Source: Kiritimatiellia bacterium (GTDB lineage: Bacteria > Verrucomicrobiota > Kiritimatiellia > RFP12 > UBA1067). Taken from it: 35,046 nucleotides of DNA. Location: positions 1 to 35,046 of the forward strand of contig JAFSTA010000043.1 of assembly GCA_017450695.1 (NCBI GenBank), in the 5' to 3' direction. How positions within the stretch are numbered: position 1 is the first letter of the stretch; each line of letters opens with the position of its first letter. This document shows, piece after piece, positions 11,415 to 30,223 of this stretch. The notes under the pieces are model-generated. The model worked only from the letters and a program-made list of their open reading frames with translations. It was not told where the DNA came from and did not search any database. Position numbers and translations under genes: made by a program.

Positions 11415-11622
11415 GGGCGCATCTGTGTTTTTCACCGTGATCCTGTCCGGTACACACGACACTGAACCGCGGAGATTCAACCTCACGCAAAGTCCGCAAC
11501 GTTCGGAAAGGGGGGGATAAACGGCAACTTCGCGGATTTGGCGGACTTGGCGTAAAACCATGACACGAAATTTTCCGTGTTTGGGTGTCACAGGCATTTG
11601 TTGAATTACGCAGATACGCCCC
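11415..11622 (+). mobile_element. Family A element, copy 1 (208 bp)
   Basis: It is bounded by GGGCGCATCTG (11415-11425) and CAGATACGCCCC (11611-11622). The interior shares long stretches with the copy at 23842-24049: TTTTTCACCGTGATCC, CTCACGCAAAGTCCGC, CGGCAACTTCGCGGA and TTTGTTGAATTA. An internal inverted repeat (CTCACGCAAAG...CTTGGCGTAA) allows a long hairpin. There is no open reading frame of note. It fills most of 11341-11729, where no other feature is visible. Confidence 0.7.
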
Positions 11623-11729: not shown

Positions 11730-12716
11730 ATGGCAAAGTACCTTGACCCAAAAGCGGACGTGACCTTCAAGAAGGTTTTCGGCGAGCACAAAAATCTCGT
11801 CACGAGCCTTTTGAATGCCCTGTTGCCCCTCGAGGACGGGAAGAAGGTCGAGTCGATCGAGTACCTGCCGGCGGAGTTGGTGCCGCGCACCCCGATCGAC
11901 AAGGACACCTCCGTTGACGTACGGTGCAGGGAGACGGGCGGGCGCACGTTCATTGTCGAGATGCAGATGAACTGGAGGGCGAGCTTCAGGCAGCGCGTCC
12001 TGTTCAACGCCTCGAAGGTGTATGTGAAGCAGCTCGACAGGGGCGAGGAATACGCGCTTCTGCAGCCGGTCTATTCGCTCAACCTCGTGAACGACACGTT
12101 TGAGCCGGACATGGAAGACTATTACCACTACTACCGGCTTGTCCATTACCTTCACTCCGACAAGGTGCTGGACGGTCTGCATCTCGTGTTCGTGGAACTC
12201 CCGAAGTTCCGGGCGGGGAACCTCGCGGAGAAGAAGATGCAGGTGCTGTGGCTCCGCTTCCTCACGGAGATCGGCGAGGCGACAAAAGAGGCGCCGCAAG
12301 ACCTCGTCGACAACCCGCAGGTGAGCCAGGCCCTCGGGATTCTGGAGGAGTCCGCCTACAACGAGGCGGAGATGTACGCATACGACAGGTTCTGGGATTA
12401 CGCCAGCCGCGAGGCTACAAGGGAGGCGGATTGGAAAAGGGCGGAAGCCGCCCTCGAGGCGGTGACGGCGGAACGCGAGGCGGTGACGGCGGAACGCGAT
12501 GCGGCGACGGCGGAACGCGATGCGGCGAAGGCGGAACGCGATGCGGCGACGGCGGAGCGCGATGCGGCGACGGCGCGGGCCGAAGCGGCGGAAAAGAAGT
12601 TGCGGCAAGACAAGTTCCAGATTGCCCGCAACCTAAAAATCATGGGGCTAGCCACAGAACAAATCGTTACGGTAACAGGTCTGTCCCCCGCCGAAATCGA
12701 CTCACTCAAGTGCTGA
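11730..12716 (+). CDS. Rpn/PDDEXK_2 family nuclease (PD-(D/E)XK 'transposase family')
   Basis: This 328-residue protein starts MAKYLDPKADVTFKKVFGE, the signature opening of the PDDEXK_2/Rpn family. The nuclease core is visible: D72/D76-region IDKDTSVDVRCRE and then TFIVEMQMNWRASFRQRVLFN (E-x-Q of the PD-(D/E)XK fold). FKKVFG and YSLNLVNDTF are also family-typical. Rpn proteins are DNA nucleases that promote RecA-independent recombination; many PVC and Bacteroidota genomes carry dozens. A coiled coil of heptads (A-x-TAER-D/E) spans about residues 244-285 and is encoded by a 21-bp tandem repeat. The C-terminus, KFQIARNLKIMGLATEQI, ends in a short helical motif typical of the family. GAGGTGG precedes the ATG. 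The gene stands alone. Confidence 0.88.
   Translation: MAKYLDPKADVTFKKVFGEHKNLVTSLLNALLPLEDGKKVESIEYLPAELVPRTPIDKDTSVDVRCRETGGRTFIVEMQMNWRASFRQRVLFNASKVYVKQLDRGEEYALLQPVYSLNLVNDTFEPDMEDYYHYYRLVHYLHSDKVLDGLHLVFVELPKFRAGNLAEKKMQVLWLRFLTEIGEATKEAPQDLVDNPQVSQALGILEESAYNEAEMYAYDRFWDYASREATREADWKRAEAALEAVTAEREAVTAERDAATAERDAAKAERDAATAERDAATARAEAAEKKLRQDKFQIARNLKIMGLATEQIVTVTGLSPAEIDSLKC
12459..12575 (+). repeat. In-frame 21-bp tandem repeat coding for a heptad coiled coil
   Basis: Five full 21-base units (12459-12563) of the form GCGGYGAMGGCGGARCGCGAK are followed by a partial sixth. Each encodes one heptad A-(V/A)-(T/K)-AER-(E/D). Because the unit is a multiple of 3, copy-number change would alter coiled-coil length without breaking the frame. 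Confidence 0.9.
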
Positions 12717-17000: not shown

Positions 17001-17083
17001 AGTGGCGGCTGCGCCGCCTAAGTGGTCCTGCGGCCCTAAATGGGGCTGGTGCCCCTAAGAGACGCTTCGCGCCAGCTGAGAAG
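17001..17083. repeat. Short-hairpin array, copy 1
   Basis: The array has GGCGGC-tgc-GCCGCC (17004-17018), GGTCC-tgc-GGCCC (one mismatch), GGGGC-tggt-GCCCC and then the GCGCTTCGCGCCAGCTGAGAAG unit, joined by TAAGTGG/TAAATG linkers. It aligns without gaps to 19005-19087 with 9 differences in 83 bases. Confidence 0.8.
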
Positions 17084-17120
17084 CTGAGAAGCGGGGAAGC
17101 TGAGAAGAAAGCGGTAGGGA

Positions 17121-17432: not shown

Positions 17433-17506
17433 GGTGCGATGGCCGAGTGGTCAGGCAGAGGACTGCAAATCCTCGTACGACGGTTCAATTCCGCCTCGCA
17501 CCTCCA
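17433..17506 (+). tRNA. tRNA-Cys (anticodon GCA), CCA encoded
   Basis: The acceptor strands GGTGCGA (17433-17439) and TCGCACC (17496-17502) pair. The anticodon stem GAGGA/TCCTC encloses CTGCAAA with anticodon GCA at 17465-17467. The T loop is TTCAATT. The discriminator base is T (17503), as expected for tRNA-Cys, followed by genome-encoded CCA (17504-17506). Confidence 0.95.
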
Positions 17507-19004: not shown

Positions 19005-19087
19005 AGTGGCGGTTGCGCCGCCTAAGTGGTCCTGCGGACCTAAATGGAGCAGATGCCCCTAAGAGGCGCTATGTGCCAGCTGAGAAG
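19005..19087. repeat. Short-hairpin array, copy 2
   Basis: It aligns to 17001-17083 without gaps. GGCGGT-tgc-GCCGCC is a stem with one G-T pair, and GGTCC-tgc-GGACC is perfect here but broken in the first copy. An extra GCGCTTCGCGCCAGCTGAGAAG unit lies just before, at about 18972-18993. The two arrays bracket the tRNA-Cys/hisHF segment. Confidence 0.8.
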
Positions 19088-19170
19088 CAAGAGGGAGTGG
19101 CGAATCCCTTTTATCCCTTCCGTCCCTTTCGTCCCTTCCCGCCCACTCCCGTTCCGGGTACGGTTTGGAA

Positions 19171-23841: not shown

Positions 23842-24049
23842 GGGCGCATCTGCGTTTTTCACCGTGATCCATGTAGATGCCTGCGATACCGAACGCGAAG
23901 ATTCTACCTCACGCAAAGTTCGCCACGTTCGCAAAGGTAGGGAATAATCGGCAACTTCGCGGACTTTGCGAACTTTGCGTGAGACTATGACAAAAAAACT
24001 TCTGTGTTTAAACACGGCAGACCTTTGTTGAATTATACAGATGCGCCCC
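23842..24049 (+). mobile_element. Family A element, copy 2 (208 bp)
   Basis: It runs from GGGCGCATCTG (23842-23852) to CAGATGCGCCCC (24038-24049) and has exactly the same length as copy 1. An internal inverted repeat, CTCACGCAAAGTTCGC and GCGAACTTTGCGTGAG, spans 23909-23984. No coding capacity is evident. Confidence 0.75.
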
Positions 24050-24170: not shown

Positions 24171-24255
24171 ATCTCGCTTGATTCGTTCTTGATTTCTTCT
24201 CTTCATAACTTTCATTCCTAAATTCCTCTGTTACCTTTCCTGAATAACGGTTTTT

Positions 24256-24448
24256 ATCTCTCGCAGAGGCGCAGAGGCGCGGAGATTTTGTGGGTTTACG
24301 ACAATTTTCCGAACAAAATTCGATTCACCTGTCGGGTGAAGGGTCGTCCCCTTCCTTGCAGTCCGACCATACCGCTTTTTCATTTCAAATCCCGTTGTTT
24401 TCATGCCTTTCTAGCCTACTCTGCGCCCTCCGCGTCTCTGCGAGAGAT
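24256..24448 (+). mobile_element. Family B element, copy 1 (193 bp)
   Basis: The ends are inverted: ATCTCTCGCAGAGGCG at the left and TCTCTGCGAGAGAT at the right. The interior shares GGCGCGGAGATTTTGTGGGT, a variant of TTTTCCGAAC, and ATTCGATTCACCTG...GGGTGAAGG with 29783-29966. Confidence 0.65.
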
Positions 24449-24530
24449 ATTCAACAGATGATCAACAGAGGTAGGTTAAATGCGGTCCTGTTTCGGGGAA
24501 GCAAACACCGTCCGGTTGTGTGCGCACCTG

Positions 24531-27041
24531 CTACTGCATCTGATAGTCCTTGCGGCTGATCACGGTGCTGTATAGTCCCACGTTTTCGTCGGTATAGTGG
24601 CGGTCCACGCCGGTGTAAACCAAACTGGTGTCCTCGTAACGTTTGAACTTGTACACCGCGTCGTTCATCAGCGATTCGTTGAACACGTTCAGGCTCACCA
24701 GCAGTTCGAAGTCCTTCACCTCCAACCCCGTCACCTTCTTGAACAACTCCGGCTCCAGCTGCGTGATCACATCCCGAAGGCTGTATTCGCGGTAGTCGGT
24801 GAGGTACATGAATACCGGCACCCTTGTCGCGAACTTGATCAGCTTCTCCTGGATCATCTTGCGCTTGGACTTGTACTCCTTCTCGGCCTCCGACAACTCC
24901 TTCTTTTCCTTCGGCGATGGTTTTTTCCCGTCCCGCTTGGCTTTCTTCACCGCGTTGGAGGTGTTGATGATGGTCTCGATTTCCGAGTTCAGGCTGCGGA
25001 ATCCCTCGATGCGCATCAGCGCCGCCATCGCCTCGTCATTCGCCAGCAGACGCGCGAGCGTGTCGTTATCGACATTCACGAGCAGCGCGCTTTCCCACCG
25101 TTTGGCGAGCAACGTGGCCGACGTCCCCGCCATCGCGATGTCGAGGATTTCCGCCGCGTTCACCTGCCGCATCGCGCTGCCGTCATAGGCCAGCACCGGA
25201 AGGAAACTGATGAATTCCCCAACCTTCTTTTCCGGGTTGTTCTCCGCGACGTTCAACCGGCAGCTGTAGTCGGATATCTGTCGCAGCGCCCGGTCCAGCG
25301 CGAAGTCGAACACGTAGCACTCCCGCTTGACGATCTCGCGTTCGCCGTTGTCTCGGGTGATCTCCCACGGACTCTGGACGCGGAATGCCGCCTGGAAGTA
25401 GGTTTCCGGCGATGTCAGATTCCGCAGCATGAAGATGCCCGTCCACGGCTTAATCGTGACGCCGGTCGTCAGCTTCCCGCACGACAGCGTGATGGTCTTG
25501 CTCTCCAGCGGGTCCTCCATACTCCGCCGCACCGGTTCCAGCGCGGCCGCGCCGATGCACGCCGCCGCCCCCGCGCAGACGTTCACCTTGTAATCGTGAT
25601 AAAAGGTGTTCTGCTTCTGCGCGAGCAGGTTCGCCATCGCGTGGCACGCCGCCACGCTCGGCAGGAACCAGAGCGTGTGGGTCAGCACGTTCAGAAGACG
25701 CGTGTCCGAAAACGGCATCGGCGGTTTCTGCGCCCCCAGTTTCAGTTCATCGACGGCCGTTTCGAGGTACGATCCTCGGATCAGGTCCAGCCACTTCTGC
25801 ACGTATGTCGCGTACTTGAAGTGCGCGTCCTTACCCGTCCCCTCGGCGGAAAAGAAGACGTTCAGGTCAAACTCGTCAAACTCCCCGCCGCTGGCGATAC
25901 GCCGGATGCTGTCGGGGATCTTGTAGGTCAGCATGACCATCCTCGGCAACGCGGCGTACGGATTCTCCCCAGGACCTTTCCACTCTTCCTTCGCCTTCTG
26001 CTCGTCGGAATAGGTCCAGTTGTAGATCTGCTCCTCGATGAACTCCCCTGAGTTCAAGGCGCGGAACGGCGTACCGGAGAGATAGAGATAGTACGACGTG
26101 GTAATCGGCAGCCAGCTCTCGTCGTATGCGTTCCCGGCGTCATAGTCGGAAAGGTCTTCCTCGTAGGCGTCCTCGTCCTGCTCGAACAACTTCTTCGCGC
26201 TGTCCTTCCACGCCCCGAAATGGTACTCGTCGAAGATCACCAGATCCCAGTTCATGGTGTGGACCCACTCGTTGTTTGTCTTGATGCCGCCGGTTGCCTT
26301 GTTCACGCCGAGGAAATCTTGGAACGATCCGAAACAGACAATCGGACGAGACTTGTCCGCCTGCTGGTACTGCTCGTCATTCGTCAACCCGCCCGGTGCG
26401 GCGGGGCGCGTGATGAACTGCCAACCCTCGAAATCGACGTGCGTCAACAGATCCTCCCGCCACGCCGTCTGTACCGCCGGCTTGAAGGTCAGGATCAATA
26501 TCCGTTTCATTTTCATCCGCTTAGCCAGCTGGTAGGCGGCAAAGGTCTTTCCAAAACGCATCTTTGCGTTCCACAGGAATTTCGGTGTCTTGCCGCTATT
26601 CTCCTTGCGGGCGCTCTTGAAATACTGCTCGGTCATCTCCACCGCGCGTTCCTGCTCCGGGCGCATGGCGAACGTCTGCGTCCGGTTTTCGAGGTTTTCC
26701 GTCCCCGTGGTCACCGCCACGACGGCCGCCCGCACATCGTCCAGCGAACACCGGAACCACTCGTTCTTGTCCGCCCCCGCATTCAGTTGCTTTTTGCCTC
26801 TTGCCTTCAAAGCGGCGTGGTCGGTGAAACAGCTGCCGTCGGTTTTCATCGCGGGCCATTGACCGAGGATATGGTATTGCACGGCGGCGGTCTGTACTTG
26901 CTCCTTGATGCGTGTCTTCACGTCGCGCTCCGTGTAGCCCACCTTGATGTACCCTTTGTGTGTCGCGACACCTACGAATTCGTATGCGTAAATCGTCGGG
27001 CGCGAACCCGTCCTCTGCGGAAAGAAATCGGTGTTAGCCAT
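24531..27041 (-). CDS. Restriction-type DEAD/DEAH helicase with N-terminal GIY-YIG (T5orf172) domain
   Basis: This 836-residue cytoplasmic protein is the putative restriction subunit. Residues about 15-105 match the T5orf172/GIY-YIG nuclease pattern: IYAYEFVGVATHKGYIKVGY, TERDVKTRIKEQ, and the acidic residue E94 in KNEWFRCSLDDV. Residues from about 125 form a superfamily 2 helicase: Walker A in WNAKMRFGKTFAAYQ (GKT 164-166), LILTFKPAVQTAW, and a DEYH box at 271-274. RFRALNS-like and TGVTIKPW segments belong to the motor's second lobe. It would move along DNA and cut near unmodified sites. The start overlaps the methyltransferase stop (TAATG), so the two are coupled. A charged coiled segment lies near residues 685-725. 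Cleavage position and cofactors are unknown. Confidence 0.82.
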   Translation of the reverse strand: MANTDFFPQRTGSRPTIYAYEFVGVATHKGYIKVGYTERDVKTRIKEQVQTAAVQYHILGQWPAMKTDGSCFTDHAALKARGKKQLNAGADKNEWFRCSLDDVRAAVVAVTTGTENLENRTQTFAMRPEQERAVEMTEQYFKSARKENSGKTPKFLWNAKMRFGKTFAAYQLAKRMKMKRILILTFKPAVQTAWREDLLTHVDFEGWQFITRPAAPGGLTNDEQYQQADKSRPIVCFGSFQDFLGVNKATGGIKTNNEWVHTMNWDLVIFDEYHFGAWKDSAKKLFEQDEDAYEEDLSDYDAGNAYDESWLPITTSYYLYLSGTPFRALNSGEFIEEQIYNWTYSDEQKAKEEWKGPGENPYAALPRMVMLTYKIPDSIRRIASGGEFDEFDLNVFFSAEGTGKDAHFKYATYVQKWLDLIRGSYLETAVDELKLGAQKPPMPFSDTRLLNVLTHTLWFLPSVAACHAMANLLAQKQNTFYHDYKVNVCAGAAACIGAAALEPVRRSMEDPLESKTITLSCGKLTTGVTIKPWTGIFMLRNLTSPETYFQAAFRVQSPWEITRDNGEREIVKRECYVFDFALDRALRQISDYSCRLNVAENNPEKKVGEFISFLPVLAYDGSAMRQVNAAEILDIAMAGTSATLLAKRWESALLVNVDNDTLARLLANDEAMAALMRIEGFRSLNSEIETIINTSNAVKKAKRDGKKPSPKEKKELSEAEKEYKSKRKMIQEKLIKFATRVPVFMYLTDYREYSLRDVITQLEPELFKKVTGLEVKDFELLVSLNVFNESLMNDAVYKFKRYEDTSLVYTGVDRHYTDENVGLYSTVISRKDYQMQ

Positions 27042-28588
27042 TACTCGTCACCTCCATCCATTGGGCGAATCATCGACTCGATAAACGTGATCTCCTCATC
27101 GGTAAGCCCGTACTTCGCATAGAGTTCTTCGTCTGTCCAAGGCTTAGAGAAATCCTGCATGGGTACGAAACGGTAAGTTTTTGAAGTAGCATCTTGGCTT
27201 GTTTTGGCTAAACTATGGCAGAATCTTACAAACTTTGTTTGAAGATACGCAGCAAGGTTATTTGCTTCTGTCTTGGAAAACCTCAATGCGGCTCCGATAA
27301 CTATATATGACTCCGTACAAATTTCATCTTTACCGATAAATGCATTAAGGTTGTCATCGTTTAATTCAGTTCCAATATTATTTGCTCTTGAAGTAAATAC
27401 CTTCCATCGTCCAATCCATTCCTGATGGTTTGGAATGTCATTAAATTCAACATATCCAATCTTCTTTCCTTTACCATAACAACGTATCGGTGTGTTCATA
27501 CCTGTCGGTGTTAGATGAAATTTTTTTGTTTTAACAAAATCGGTACTCAATCCAAACGGTTTCCTTGATGACACATATTTAGCCACAACATCATCATCGC
27601 ACATAGACATGACTTTTTCTAATATCGAAAGAGATTCTCCATATCGTAAGAAAATATCAAGGTCTCTATACTTAAGAGATCGATGCATCGAATTAGTTTT
27701 ATCACCATCGTGCGTAACTACATTGACTAGATTCTTTTGATTATCAAAATCCTTTTTCCAGAGGAAGTAGCAAACACCTCCTCGAATGTTAACACCCGGA
27801 AAACAATCATCAGTGTTTGGGAAATCGTGTAATTCTTGTATGTGCGTATCTGTAATCATGTCATCCCTGAATTCATCAAGTCCCTTTCCACCAGCATACC
27901 AACGTGCAGGGATAATCATCGTAAGATACTGTGGATTTAGCTTCTTTGCTTGTTCTACGAAATAGTGATAAACCGGTTTTGCGCTTGCTTGTGCACCTCC
28001 ATCGCTCAATTGGTACGGCGGGTTGCTGATGATCACATCGAATTTCATGTTGAAGATCTCCTCTGGTTTCGTTGTGTGGATAAACTCGTAGGCGTGTGTT
28101 TCCAGAGCCTCGTCGCGGTCGTACTGGCTTTGCGACGCGCCGCAGAATTCGCACTTGCCGTCGTCCCACGTGTGGCGGGTGCTTTCAAAGCGGATGTTGC
28201 CGCCGGGGGTGTCGAATTGCGTCACCGAGTATTCACCGTCCGCCCGTTTGGAACAATAGAGGCTGCGGCGGGAGAGGTGCGAGGTCAGTTCCGTGATGGC
28301 GATTCCGAAAAGCTGACGCGTGAAGATGTGGTCGATGCGTTCCTGAAGGTCGGGAATCTTCTTCTCAAGCCCCTTCAGCAACCGCTTGGCGATCTCGCGC
28401 AGAAAGACGCCGCTCTTGCAGGCGGGATCGAGGAATGTCGTGTCGGGATTGCGGAAGAGTTTCTGTGGCAGCAGGTCGAGCATGGCGTTCGCCACCTCCG
28501 GCGGGGTGAATACTTCGTCGTTCGAGAGGTTGGCGATACAGGTCAACACGTCGGGGTTGTGTCCTGCGTTCGTGTGTTCACTTGTCAT
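27041..28588 (-). CDS. Eco57I-type N6-adenine DNA methyltransferase with AT-rich recognition half
   Basis: This 515-residue protein should methylate adenine to protect host DNA. The N-terminal half has EVFTPPEVANAMLDLLP, SAM motif I as TFLDPACKSGVFLREI (residues about 52-66), and the catalytic motif IV as IISNPPYQ (NPPY at 189-192). A single CEFCG at 147-150 could be part of a metal site. The C-terminal half (from about residue 200) should contain the target recognition domain, and its DNA (about 27160-28010) is much richer in A+T than the first half. It is the middle gene of the operon: it overlaps the preceding methyltransferase-like gene by 11 bases and the helicase start by one. I see no frameshift. 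Confidence 0.85.
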   Translation of the reverse strand: MTSEHTNAGHNPDVLTCIANLSNDEVFTPPEVANAMLDLLPQKLFRNPDTTFLDPACKSGVFLREIAKRLLKGLEKKIPDLQERIDHIFTRQLFGIAITELTSHLSRRSLYCSKRADGEYSVTQFDTPGGNIRFESTRHTWDDGKCEFCGASQSQYDRDEALETHAYEFIHTTKPEEIFNMKFDVIISNPPYQLSDGGAQASAKPVYHYFVEQAKKLNPQYLTMIIPARWYAGGKGLDEFRDDMITDTHIQELHDFPNTDDCFPGVNIRGGVCYFLWKKDFDNQKNLVNVVTHDGDKTNSMHRSLKYRDLDIFLRYGESLSILEKVMSMCDDDVVAKYVSSRKPFGLSTDFVKTKKFHLTPTGMNTPIRCYGKGKKIGYVEFNDIPNHQEWIGRWKVFTSRANNIGTELNDDNLNAFIGKDEICTESYIVIGAALRFSKTEANNLAAYLQTKFVRFCHSLAKTSQDATSKTYRFVPMQDFSKPWTDEELYAKYGLTDEEITFIESMIRPMDGGDE

Positions 28589-29285
28589 AGTCTTGAACCT
28601 TTCTGTAATCGGTAATGTACTGCTTGAGGAATGTCGGCTCGACGGATCCGTCCGCCGAGGCGAAGAGGTCGCCCTGTCCCGTCGTCCGGATCTCGTCCTC
28701 GATCTTCGCGCTGCTCAACAGCTCCGCGAAGGAATAGTCCTTGCGCTGCATCCGCGTGTCGTGGAAGGGGAAGGACCATTCGGAGAAGACGATCGGTTCG
28801 TTCGTGTCGTTTTGGTTTTCATCGACCCGCATCAGGGTCAGCGCGTTCCCGCAGACGATGTTGCGGCGCAGGATGAAACGGACCGCCTCGCGGCACTCCG
28901 CGTTCGTTTCGTTTCCACAGACCGCCGCGTACTCGGCATCCCAAATGCCGTAGAGCCGTTCCCGGCAGGTATCTACGTTGTCCGCCATCAGATCCACGCC
29001 GTAGAGGCTGGAGACAGCCATGACAGACTGCCGCTCGAATTCGGGCGGGAACGGTTTTCCCTTTCCTGGCGGGATGGATTGTTTTTTGGAGGCAACCAGT
29101 TTCCGGCGCAGGATTTCGGCGAGAAAGTTGCCGTCCCCGCAGGCGGGTTCGAGAAAACGGGAATCGACGCGCTCGGTTTCGGGCTTCACCAAATCGAGCA
29201 TGGCGTTCACCTCGCGTTCGGCGGTGAACACCTCTCCGAAAGCGCTGACGCGCTCGCGGCTTTTCACCTGGTCTGACGGTTGCAT
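28578..29285 (-). CDS. Methyltransferase-like protein lacking the NPPY catalytic motif
   Basis: This 235-residue first gene of the operon begins like its downstream partner: FGEVFTAEREVNAMLDLVKP, then SAM motif I in SRFLEPACGDGNFLAEIL (residues about 43-58), LYGVDLMADNVDTCRERL and NIVCGNALTL. Where N6-adenine enzymes carry (D/N)PP(Y/F), the sequence instead reads IVFSEWSFPFHDTRM, so catalytic motif IV is absent. The protein stops soon after, with no recognition domain. It is probably a non-catalytic SAM-binding partner, a split subunit or a duplicated remnant kept by the operon. The 11-base overlap with the next gene and an intact frame argue against simple decay. GAGAGGA precedes the start, and a second ATG lies 4 bases upstream out of frame. 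Confidence 0.75.
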   Translation of the reverse strand: MQPSDQVKSRERVSAFGEVFTAEREVNAMLDLVKPETERVDSRFLEPACGDGNFLAEILRRKLVASKKQSIPPGKGKPFPPEFERQSVMAVSSLYGVDLMADNVDTCRERLYGIWDAEYAAVCGNETNAECREAVRFILRRNIVCGNALTLMRVDENQNDTNEPIVFSEWSFPFHDTRMQRKDYSFAELLSSAKIEDEIRTTGQGDLFASADGSVEPTFLKQYITDYRKVQDYDK

Positions 29286-29502: not shown

Positions 29503-29645
29503 ATGATGTTAAACTAACTGCGCGAAGGGTTTGACGCCTCCGCTCCAGCATCGGTCTCGACAGTTGCCCATAGAAACCGAACGAAGGGAGTGTAGCACAC
29601 CCCGCTCCGTGGTTTCAGGTTCGAATTTCAACCGATGCGGGTTCG

Positions 29646-30091
29646 GGGCGCATCTGTATAATTCAACAAAGGTCTGCCGTGTTTAAACCCAGAAGTTTTC
29701 ATGTCATGGTCTCACGCCAAGTTCGCGAAGTCCGCGAAGTTGCCGGTTATTCCCTTGTTCATTGTATCTGCCAGTGGTTTTGATCTCTCGCGGAGGCGCG
29801 GAGATTTTGTGGGTTTCCGGCAGTTTTCCGAACGAGGTTCGATTCACCTGCTGGGTGAAGGATCATCTCCTTCCGTTTGGCTCAACAATCCCGCTTCTTC
29901 ATTTGAAAACTCTGTTCCAGGACTGATCTCCGCGTACTCTGCGCCCGCGGCGGCTCTGCGTGAGAAACCAAACGAGGGAAGCTGGGGGTATTCCCCCTTT
30001 GCGAACGTAGCGGACTTTGCGTGAGGTTGAATCTCCGCGTTCGGTATCGTAGGTATCTACATGGATCACGGTGAAAAATGCAGATACGCCC
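29646..30091 (-). mobile_element. Family A element, copy 3, interrupted by a family B insertion
   Basis: The ends are GGGCGCATCTG (29646-29656) and CAGATACGCCC (30081-30091). The left part (to about 29754) and the right part (from about 29996) together match the reverse complement of copy 2 almost continuously: CAACAAAGGTCTGCCGTGTT on the left, GGATCACGGTGAAAAATGCA on the right. The 446-bp length equals 208 plus about 240 inserted bases. Confidence 0.75.
29755..29988 (+). mobile_element. Family B element, copy 2, inserted in family A copy 3
   Basis: The segment lies between two TATTCCC copies (29748-29754 and 29989-29995) that occur once in uninterrupted family A copies, a probable 7-bp target duplication. 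Its interior (from about 29783) is similar to 24256-24448: GCGCGGAGATTTTGTGGGTT, TTTTCCGAAC, and GATTCACCTGCTGGGTGAAG. Confidence 0.65.
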
Positions 30092-30223
30092 GCGGGTTCG
30101 CGACGAAGCGCGTCTCCCTCCGTGTTTCTGTGTCTCCGTGTGAGGAAAACGCAGAAGTTTCGACATCTGTAATTCCTCGTACGCACGGGAAAAGGGGTGA
30201 AAATTTACAAAATGAAGAATTAT

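Follow-up and report, generated by a model that had tools for sequence, protein, structure and literature searches.

The element studied here is located between two groups of genes in the window, i.e., the whole stretch of 35,046 nucleotides analysed, which represents contig C211 of the 5.0-Mb, 287-contig assembly that was surveyed. On one side of the element, Eco57I-like methylase and helicase genes form a minus-strand cluster that extends to position 29285; on the other side, an HTH/ImmA-like gene pair starts at position 30197. The cluster (24531-29285) is restriction-modification-like and comprises a ResIII/T5orf172 helicase and an Eco57I-type methylase, with a further, separate methylase-like ORF. 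The window also contains a PDDEXK_2 (Rpn-like) gene (11730-12716), which adjoins a copy of the repeat family designated A below and has a 21-bp tandem repeat in its 3' part (12434-12580), as well as two 84-nt direct repeats (17001-17084 and 19005-19088; 89% identical) with GCGCC-rich hairpin-like units, which flank hisH/hisF-like genes; a tRNA-Cys gene is located at 17433.

The segment at positions 29646-30091 has a length of 446 bp and inverted ends, i.e., GGGCGCATCTGTATAATTCA at 29646 and GGGCGTATCTGCATTTTTCA at 30091 (minus strand). It shares these ends with two 207-bp copies of family A in the same window and carries extra DNA in its middle. The relevant features are as follows:

29637-29645, no strand: GCGGGTTCG, the 9-bp target-site duplication of the whole composite on its left side (read from the sequence; 9 bp is typical of family A)
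29646-29748, minus strand: right half of family A (ISKra4-type MITE) with the outer terminal inverted repeat GGGCGCATCTGTATAATTCA
29749-29988, plus strand: family B (IS1380-type MITE, A[B] subtype) with worn ends ATTCCCTTGTTC... and ...CGAGGGAAGCTGGGGG
29748-29754, plus strand: first TATTCCC, mostly the terminal motif of B (ATTCCTC in sister copies) beside one A base
29989-29995, plus strand: second TATTCCC, A sequence; uninterrupted A copies read TTATTTCC / TTATTCCC there
29989-30091, minus strand: left half of family A with the terminal inverted repeat GGGCGTATCTGCATTTTTCACCGTG
30092-30100, no strand: GCGGGTTCG again, the target-site duplication (9 bp) on the right side (read from the sequence)
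11415-11621, plus strand: uninterrupted A, 207 bp, with the 9-bp duplication CTTCTCGCC / CTTCTCACC (one mismatch)
23842-24048, plus strand: uninterrupted A, 207 bp, with the exact 9-bp duplication CCCGGTGCC
24217-24480, plus strand: free-standing family B copy with the left end CCTAAATTCCTCTGTT

The segment is thus one miniature transposon (IS1380 type) inside another (ISKra4 type), which confirms the B-in-A structure given in a preliminary description of this DNA. The repeats far exceed a chance level: A-type ends (GSGCRYMTCTGYRTWWTTCA) occurred 93 times in the 5.0-Mb genome and B-type ends (CCTARATTCCKCKKTT) 110 times, as compared to 0 for the control in both cases (for A, the reversed pattern). 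The reported similarity between the inner segment and positions 24256-24448 also held (81% in an ungapped alignment of 120 nt and 76% in a gapped one of 203 nt), and the uninterrupted A copies do have the same inverted ends as the composite, but by the present boundaries their length is 207 bp rather than the 208 bp given before. The free-standing B copy matches the left end of an IS1380-type element from a relative at 16 of 16 positions; its right end is worn, and its flanks (TTCAT / TTAAA) show no clear duplication. The B copy inside the composite was tested for intact ends and for a clean 5-bp duplication and showed neither; as its own ends are worn, it was assigned to the IS1380-type family through its relatives. 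An Rfam search of the elements matched no RNA family.

All copy numbers represent lower bounds, as no more than 40 candidates per genome were scored in the DNA search and as many copies end at contig breaks. Many contigs of the genome start inside an A element, with A ends at contig positions 122-141, which suggests that the assembly breaks at A repeats; A and B repeats appear to interrupt metagenome assembly at many points.

Family A represents a MITE of approx. 207 bp; its ends are of the ISKra4 type (GGGCGCATCTG...), and its target duplications have 9 bp. The copies are short, numerous and dispersed, and carry no transposase gene. Among the 30 copies in this genome with both flanks readable, the 9-bp duplication was exact in 15 and had no more than one mismatch in 21, as compared to 0 and 0.14, respectively, when the left flank of one copy was paired with the right flank of another. 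An 8-bp duplication was found in one of these copies and duplications of 10-12 bp in none; ISKra4-related elements are described as having 8- or 9-bp duplications (PMC3942029). The flank GTACGAAGGGGYTGC is common to five A copies from different places, so that A also seems to be located inside a third repeated sequence. Exact matches to the 22-bp left end of A were present in named metagenome-bin records for Kiritimatiellae, Verrucomicrobia and Lentisphaerae; the labels of several give the rumen, omasum or rectum of sheep or goats as the source.

In relatives, the ends of A bound interiors of other sequence. An intact 1,804-bp insertion sequence is located between these ends in genome G004 (contig C42) and encodes a 438-aa transposase with ISKra4 as its best model (NF033572, E 2.5e-43); this model was best by a wide margin, and we therefore use the label ISKra4-like, though the score is below the curated NCBIfam equivalog cut-off (148.8 vs 205 bits). 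A second intact element with the ends of A (1,805 bp; genome G036, contig C78) is 94.7% identical to the first, is flanked by the exact 9-bp duplication CCGCGTTTT and encodes a transposase 93% identical to that of G004. Family A and these insertion sequences have the ends alone in common (approx. 22-31 bp), the interiors being unrelated. Besides the transposase gene, the G004 element carries an antisense DUF6788 gene; in the ISKra4-like insertion sequence, this gene (L206, positions 467-796) encodes 110 aa. In the surveyed genome itself, the search found no intact ISKra4-like element with precisely these ends; a broken ISKra4 remnant (C13) was all that turned up. A 1,990-bp pair of A ends on contig C107, considered as an autonomous element, apparently consists of two independent A copies with a VirB11-like ATPase gene between them.

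Family B represents a MITE of approx. 190-490 bp with IS1380-type ends (CCTARATTCC...) and 5-bp duplications; its ends were present in only 4 of the 59 other genomes searched. Complete copies show the exact duplications GTTAT (ATAAC on the opposite strand), TTGAA, TTCAT, TTCAA, ATCAT and ATCAA. Exact 5-bp duplications were found for 7 of 23 copies (control, 0.8), and duplications with at most one mismatch for 10 (control, 4.4); the higher control values reflect the target preference of B, as WTNAW fits 27 of 40 B-flanking 5-mers against a background of 1%. The earlier claim that B is a mobile unit in its own right and was inserted into an A element is supported. It had been suggested that other B insertions be examined for 7-bp duplications, and none of the 23 copies showed one.

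ISEcp1 is a member of the IS1380 family. Its ends are CCTAGATTCTACGT (IRL) and ACGTGGAATTTAGG (IRR), and its duplications have 5 bp (PMC7864471). A 1,840-bp element of genome G041 (contig C76) has the ends of B (CCTAAATTCCTCTGTT and CCTAAATTCCTCTTTT), with an IS1380-family transposase gene between them, and its flanking 5-mers are TTCAA / GTCAA. The transposase matches NF033539 (E 1.1e-40) below the curated NCBIfam IS1380 equivalog cut-off (139.5 vs 180 bits) and passes Pfam DDE_Tnp_1_4 (77.5 vs a cut-off of 34.7); we therefore label it IS1380-type. In the surveyed genome, no intact IS1380-type element with the exact ends of B was found, only a fragment at a contig end (C198), which was rejected as the mover of B because the end of B is absent from its visible flank. 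Transposases with matching inverted ends, which the preliminary description had proposed to look for, are hence present in relatives (G004, G036 and G041) but not in intact form in the genome itself. The GxxExxY genes were considered as carriers of CTCTGCG-type repeats and rejected, as the genome has only two and A or B ends flank neither of them. Some free B copies (L041/L236, L047 and L105) end in ...GAGGAATCTAGG or similar, directly 5' of an apparent ATG; the end of B could serve as a ribosome-binding site for the next gene.

The junctions between A and B are shared among composites. Read in the orientation of A, the left junction of nearly all copies is AAAGGGGGAATA followed by CCCCCAGCTTCCCTCGTTTGG, or AAGGGGGAATA followed by CCCCC..., the consensus end of B being CCTAGATTCCTCGTTTGG. 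The right junction is ATGAACAAGGGAATAACCGGC in the window, C165 and C202, ATGAACAAGAGGAATAACCGGC in C181 and C48 (and, by reverse reading, in C97) and ATGAACAGGGGAATAACCGGC in C150 and C269, as compared to the B consensus end AACAGAGGAATTTAGG; against this consensus, GGAAT at the right junction is best read as the end of B without its last bases. At the junction where the B copy of the window has the first TATTCCC, sister copies read ATTCCTCTTGTTC or ATTCCCCTGTTC, and the terminal consensus of B is AACAGAGGAAT. The preliminary description had taken TATTCCC on both sides of B as a 7-bp duplication. The word is indeed present at 29748-29754 and 29989-29995, but its left copy largely represents the end of B, and the 7-bp word is a B end that by chance resembles GGGAATA of A. 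Other B subfamilies are located at the same A site in C1 and C14, with the intact layout ATCAT[CCTAG...TTTAGG]ATCAT. For the window-type insertion, we infer that B may have entered at the 5-mer ATAAC, with subsequent decay of the duplication; ATAAC was also used as a target by a free B copy (C30). The case shows how readily a worn inverted end may, through a short matching word, be taken for a target-site duplication.

One or both A[B] junctions were also found at C165, C202, C181, C48, C269, C176 and C97, so that the insertion of B, previously assigned to the present locus, is a single older event, after which the composite was copied. In the fuller composites, A and B show similar divergence (C202: right part of A 96%, B 96%; C48: A 85-87%, B 91%). 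Exact 9-bp duplications surround the whole composite in the window as well as in C103, C143 and C53; among window-type composites, several of which are cut by contig ends, a clean two-sided duplication was observed for the window copy only, and C48 has three mismatches. The perfect A-type duplication GCGGGTTCG around all 446 bp indicates that the composite reached the window as one unit. B-type insertions occupy at least three positions in A, i.e., the middle, a site near position 185 (TTGAA/TTGAA at C215 and C103, and by layout at C143) and a site near position 65 (C53, with a worn CCTGGATTCC junction), and the capture of B by A was thus recurrent. The earlier order of events, A before B, stands. 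At three loci, A is followed by ATGAATTGATCAAAG, B and then A sequence, a second kind of composite.

These data show the nesting of B in A and the presence of A[B] at several loci, and they make it very probable that the two are non-autonomous MITEs and that A[B] spread by means of an ISKra4-like enzyme. A B element with true 7-bp target duplications that entered the A copy at this very locus is highly improbable. TATTCCC is found on both sides in the window, C165 and C202 copies, but the duplications of other B copies have 5 bp and not 7 bp, one junction in sister composites is ATTCCTC or ATTCCCC and thus matches AACAGAGGAAT, and the same composite occurs at several other loci; A copies that hold B without a matching 7-bp duplication likewise count against the 7-bp part of the preliminary description. 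Just as improbable is a longer ancestral element from which the 207-bp A copies derived by deletion of B. The numerous composite copies and the use of one A insertion site by several B subfamilies would fit such an origin, but there are also B-type elements outside A that have 5-bp duplications of their own, the 5-mer duplicated around B elsewhere in A is single in uninterrupted A copies, and one ancestral A[B] cannot yield three insertion positions.

Recombination or gene conversion between repeats, with A[B] not transposed in one piece, is a somewhat less remote but still unlikely source of the composite loci. Rearranged loci do exist, with half an A, B and an unrelated flank at C150 and C22 and with A-ATGAATTGATCAAAG-B-A arrays at C189, C202 and C269; the exact duplications of 9 bp that enclose the entire composite (window, C103, C143 and C53) are, however, the mark of insertion in one piece.

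In the most probable order of events, A amplified before B-type elements entered it at three or more positions; copies of the window-type composite then reached several loci, one of them in the window. From the common ends and duplication lengths, we infer mobilisation of both families in trans. An ISKra4-like (Mutator-related) transposase would recognise the approx. 22-bp ends of A and leave 9-bp duplications, and an IS1380-family transposase would act on the CCTARATTCC ends of B, with a preference for TTNAA-like targets and with 5-bp duplications. B would have entered an ancestral A near its middle, at the site also used by the ATCAT/ATCAT B subfamilies, and its ends would then have decayed. 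As the outer ends of A are still intact, the ISKra4-like enzyme may have kept moving the enlarged A[B], and the move into the window would have produced the GCGGGTTCG duplication.

The centre of A (23908-23983 in the window) is a palindrome of approx. 75 bp composed of CGCAAAGNN units (CTCACGCAAAGTCCGC...GCGTGAG), and this middle part gives a strong hairpin on folding (z -3.4). A similar palindrome of approx. 75 bp, without the ends of A, is located at seven examined loci of relatives within the family and order, and thus in several other genomes of the order; no duplication around these seven stand-alone copies was evident by eye. That the hairpin is a separate mobile palindrome captured by A is conceivable but rather doubtful. 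The palindrome and the related CGCAGAGNN stretches of B could have a common source. If this were true, mobile DNA would be present in the window in three layers, with transposase-dependent families spreading an otherwise separate repeat. The papers listed by a literature search for the repeat words CGCAAAGNN and CGCAGAGNN were all unrelated, apparently primer matches.

Overall, A and B are two new MITE families with a mechanism that is already known, and they provide two families of uncultured Kiritimatiellae-type bacteria that are each tied by their ends to a transposase family; many of the relatives come from rumen and gut samples. The locus also provides a clear bacterial example of a MITE-in-MITE composite that kept multiplying; in a 2024 review of prokaryotic MITEs (PMC10969869), the words nested, IS1380 and ISKra4 are absent.

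Compared to the ISKra4 family (Mutator-related, p-MULT 4) and its MITE derivatives, A likewise has ends that start with GGG and 9-bp duplications, and relatives that bear its ends have the same kind of transposase; A differs in that this transposase scores under the NCBIfam cut-off and in its unrelated interior with the strong hairpin of CGCAAAGNN units. Similarly, B shares CCTARATTCC... ends and 5-bp duplications with the IS1380 family (e.g., ISEcp1) and its MITE derivatives, and an IS1380-type transposase is located between its ends in a relative, whereas B is gene-less, its interior is unrelated to the insertion sequence and the transposase is under the NCBIfam cut-off. Both families resemble the bacterial MITEs Chunjie of Geobacter, MITEAba12 and the TIMEs, which are also short and gene-less, have inverted ends and target duplications, occur in many copies and are presumed to move in trans. 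Unlike bacterial MITEs in general, two unrelated families are here found one inside the other in repeated instances, and the resulting composite has multiplied in turn.
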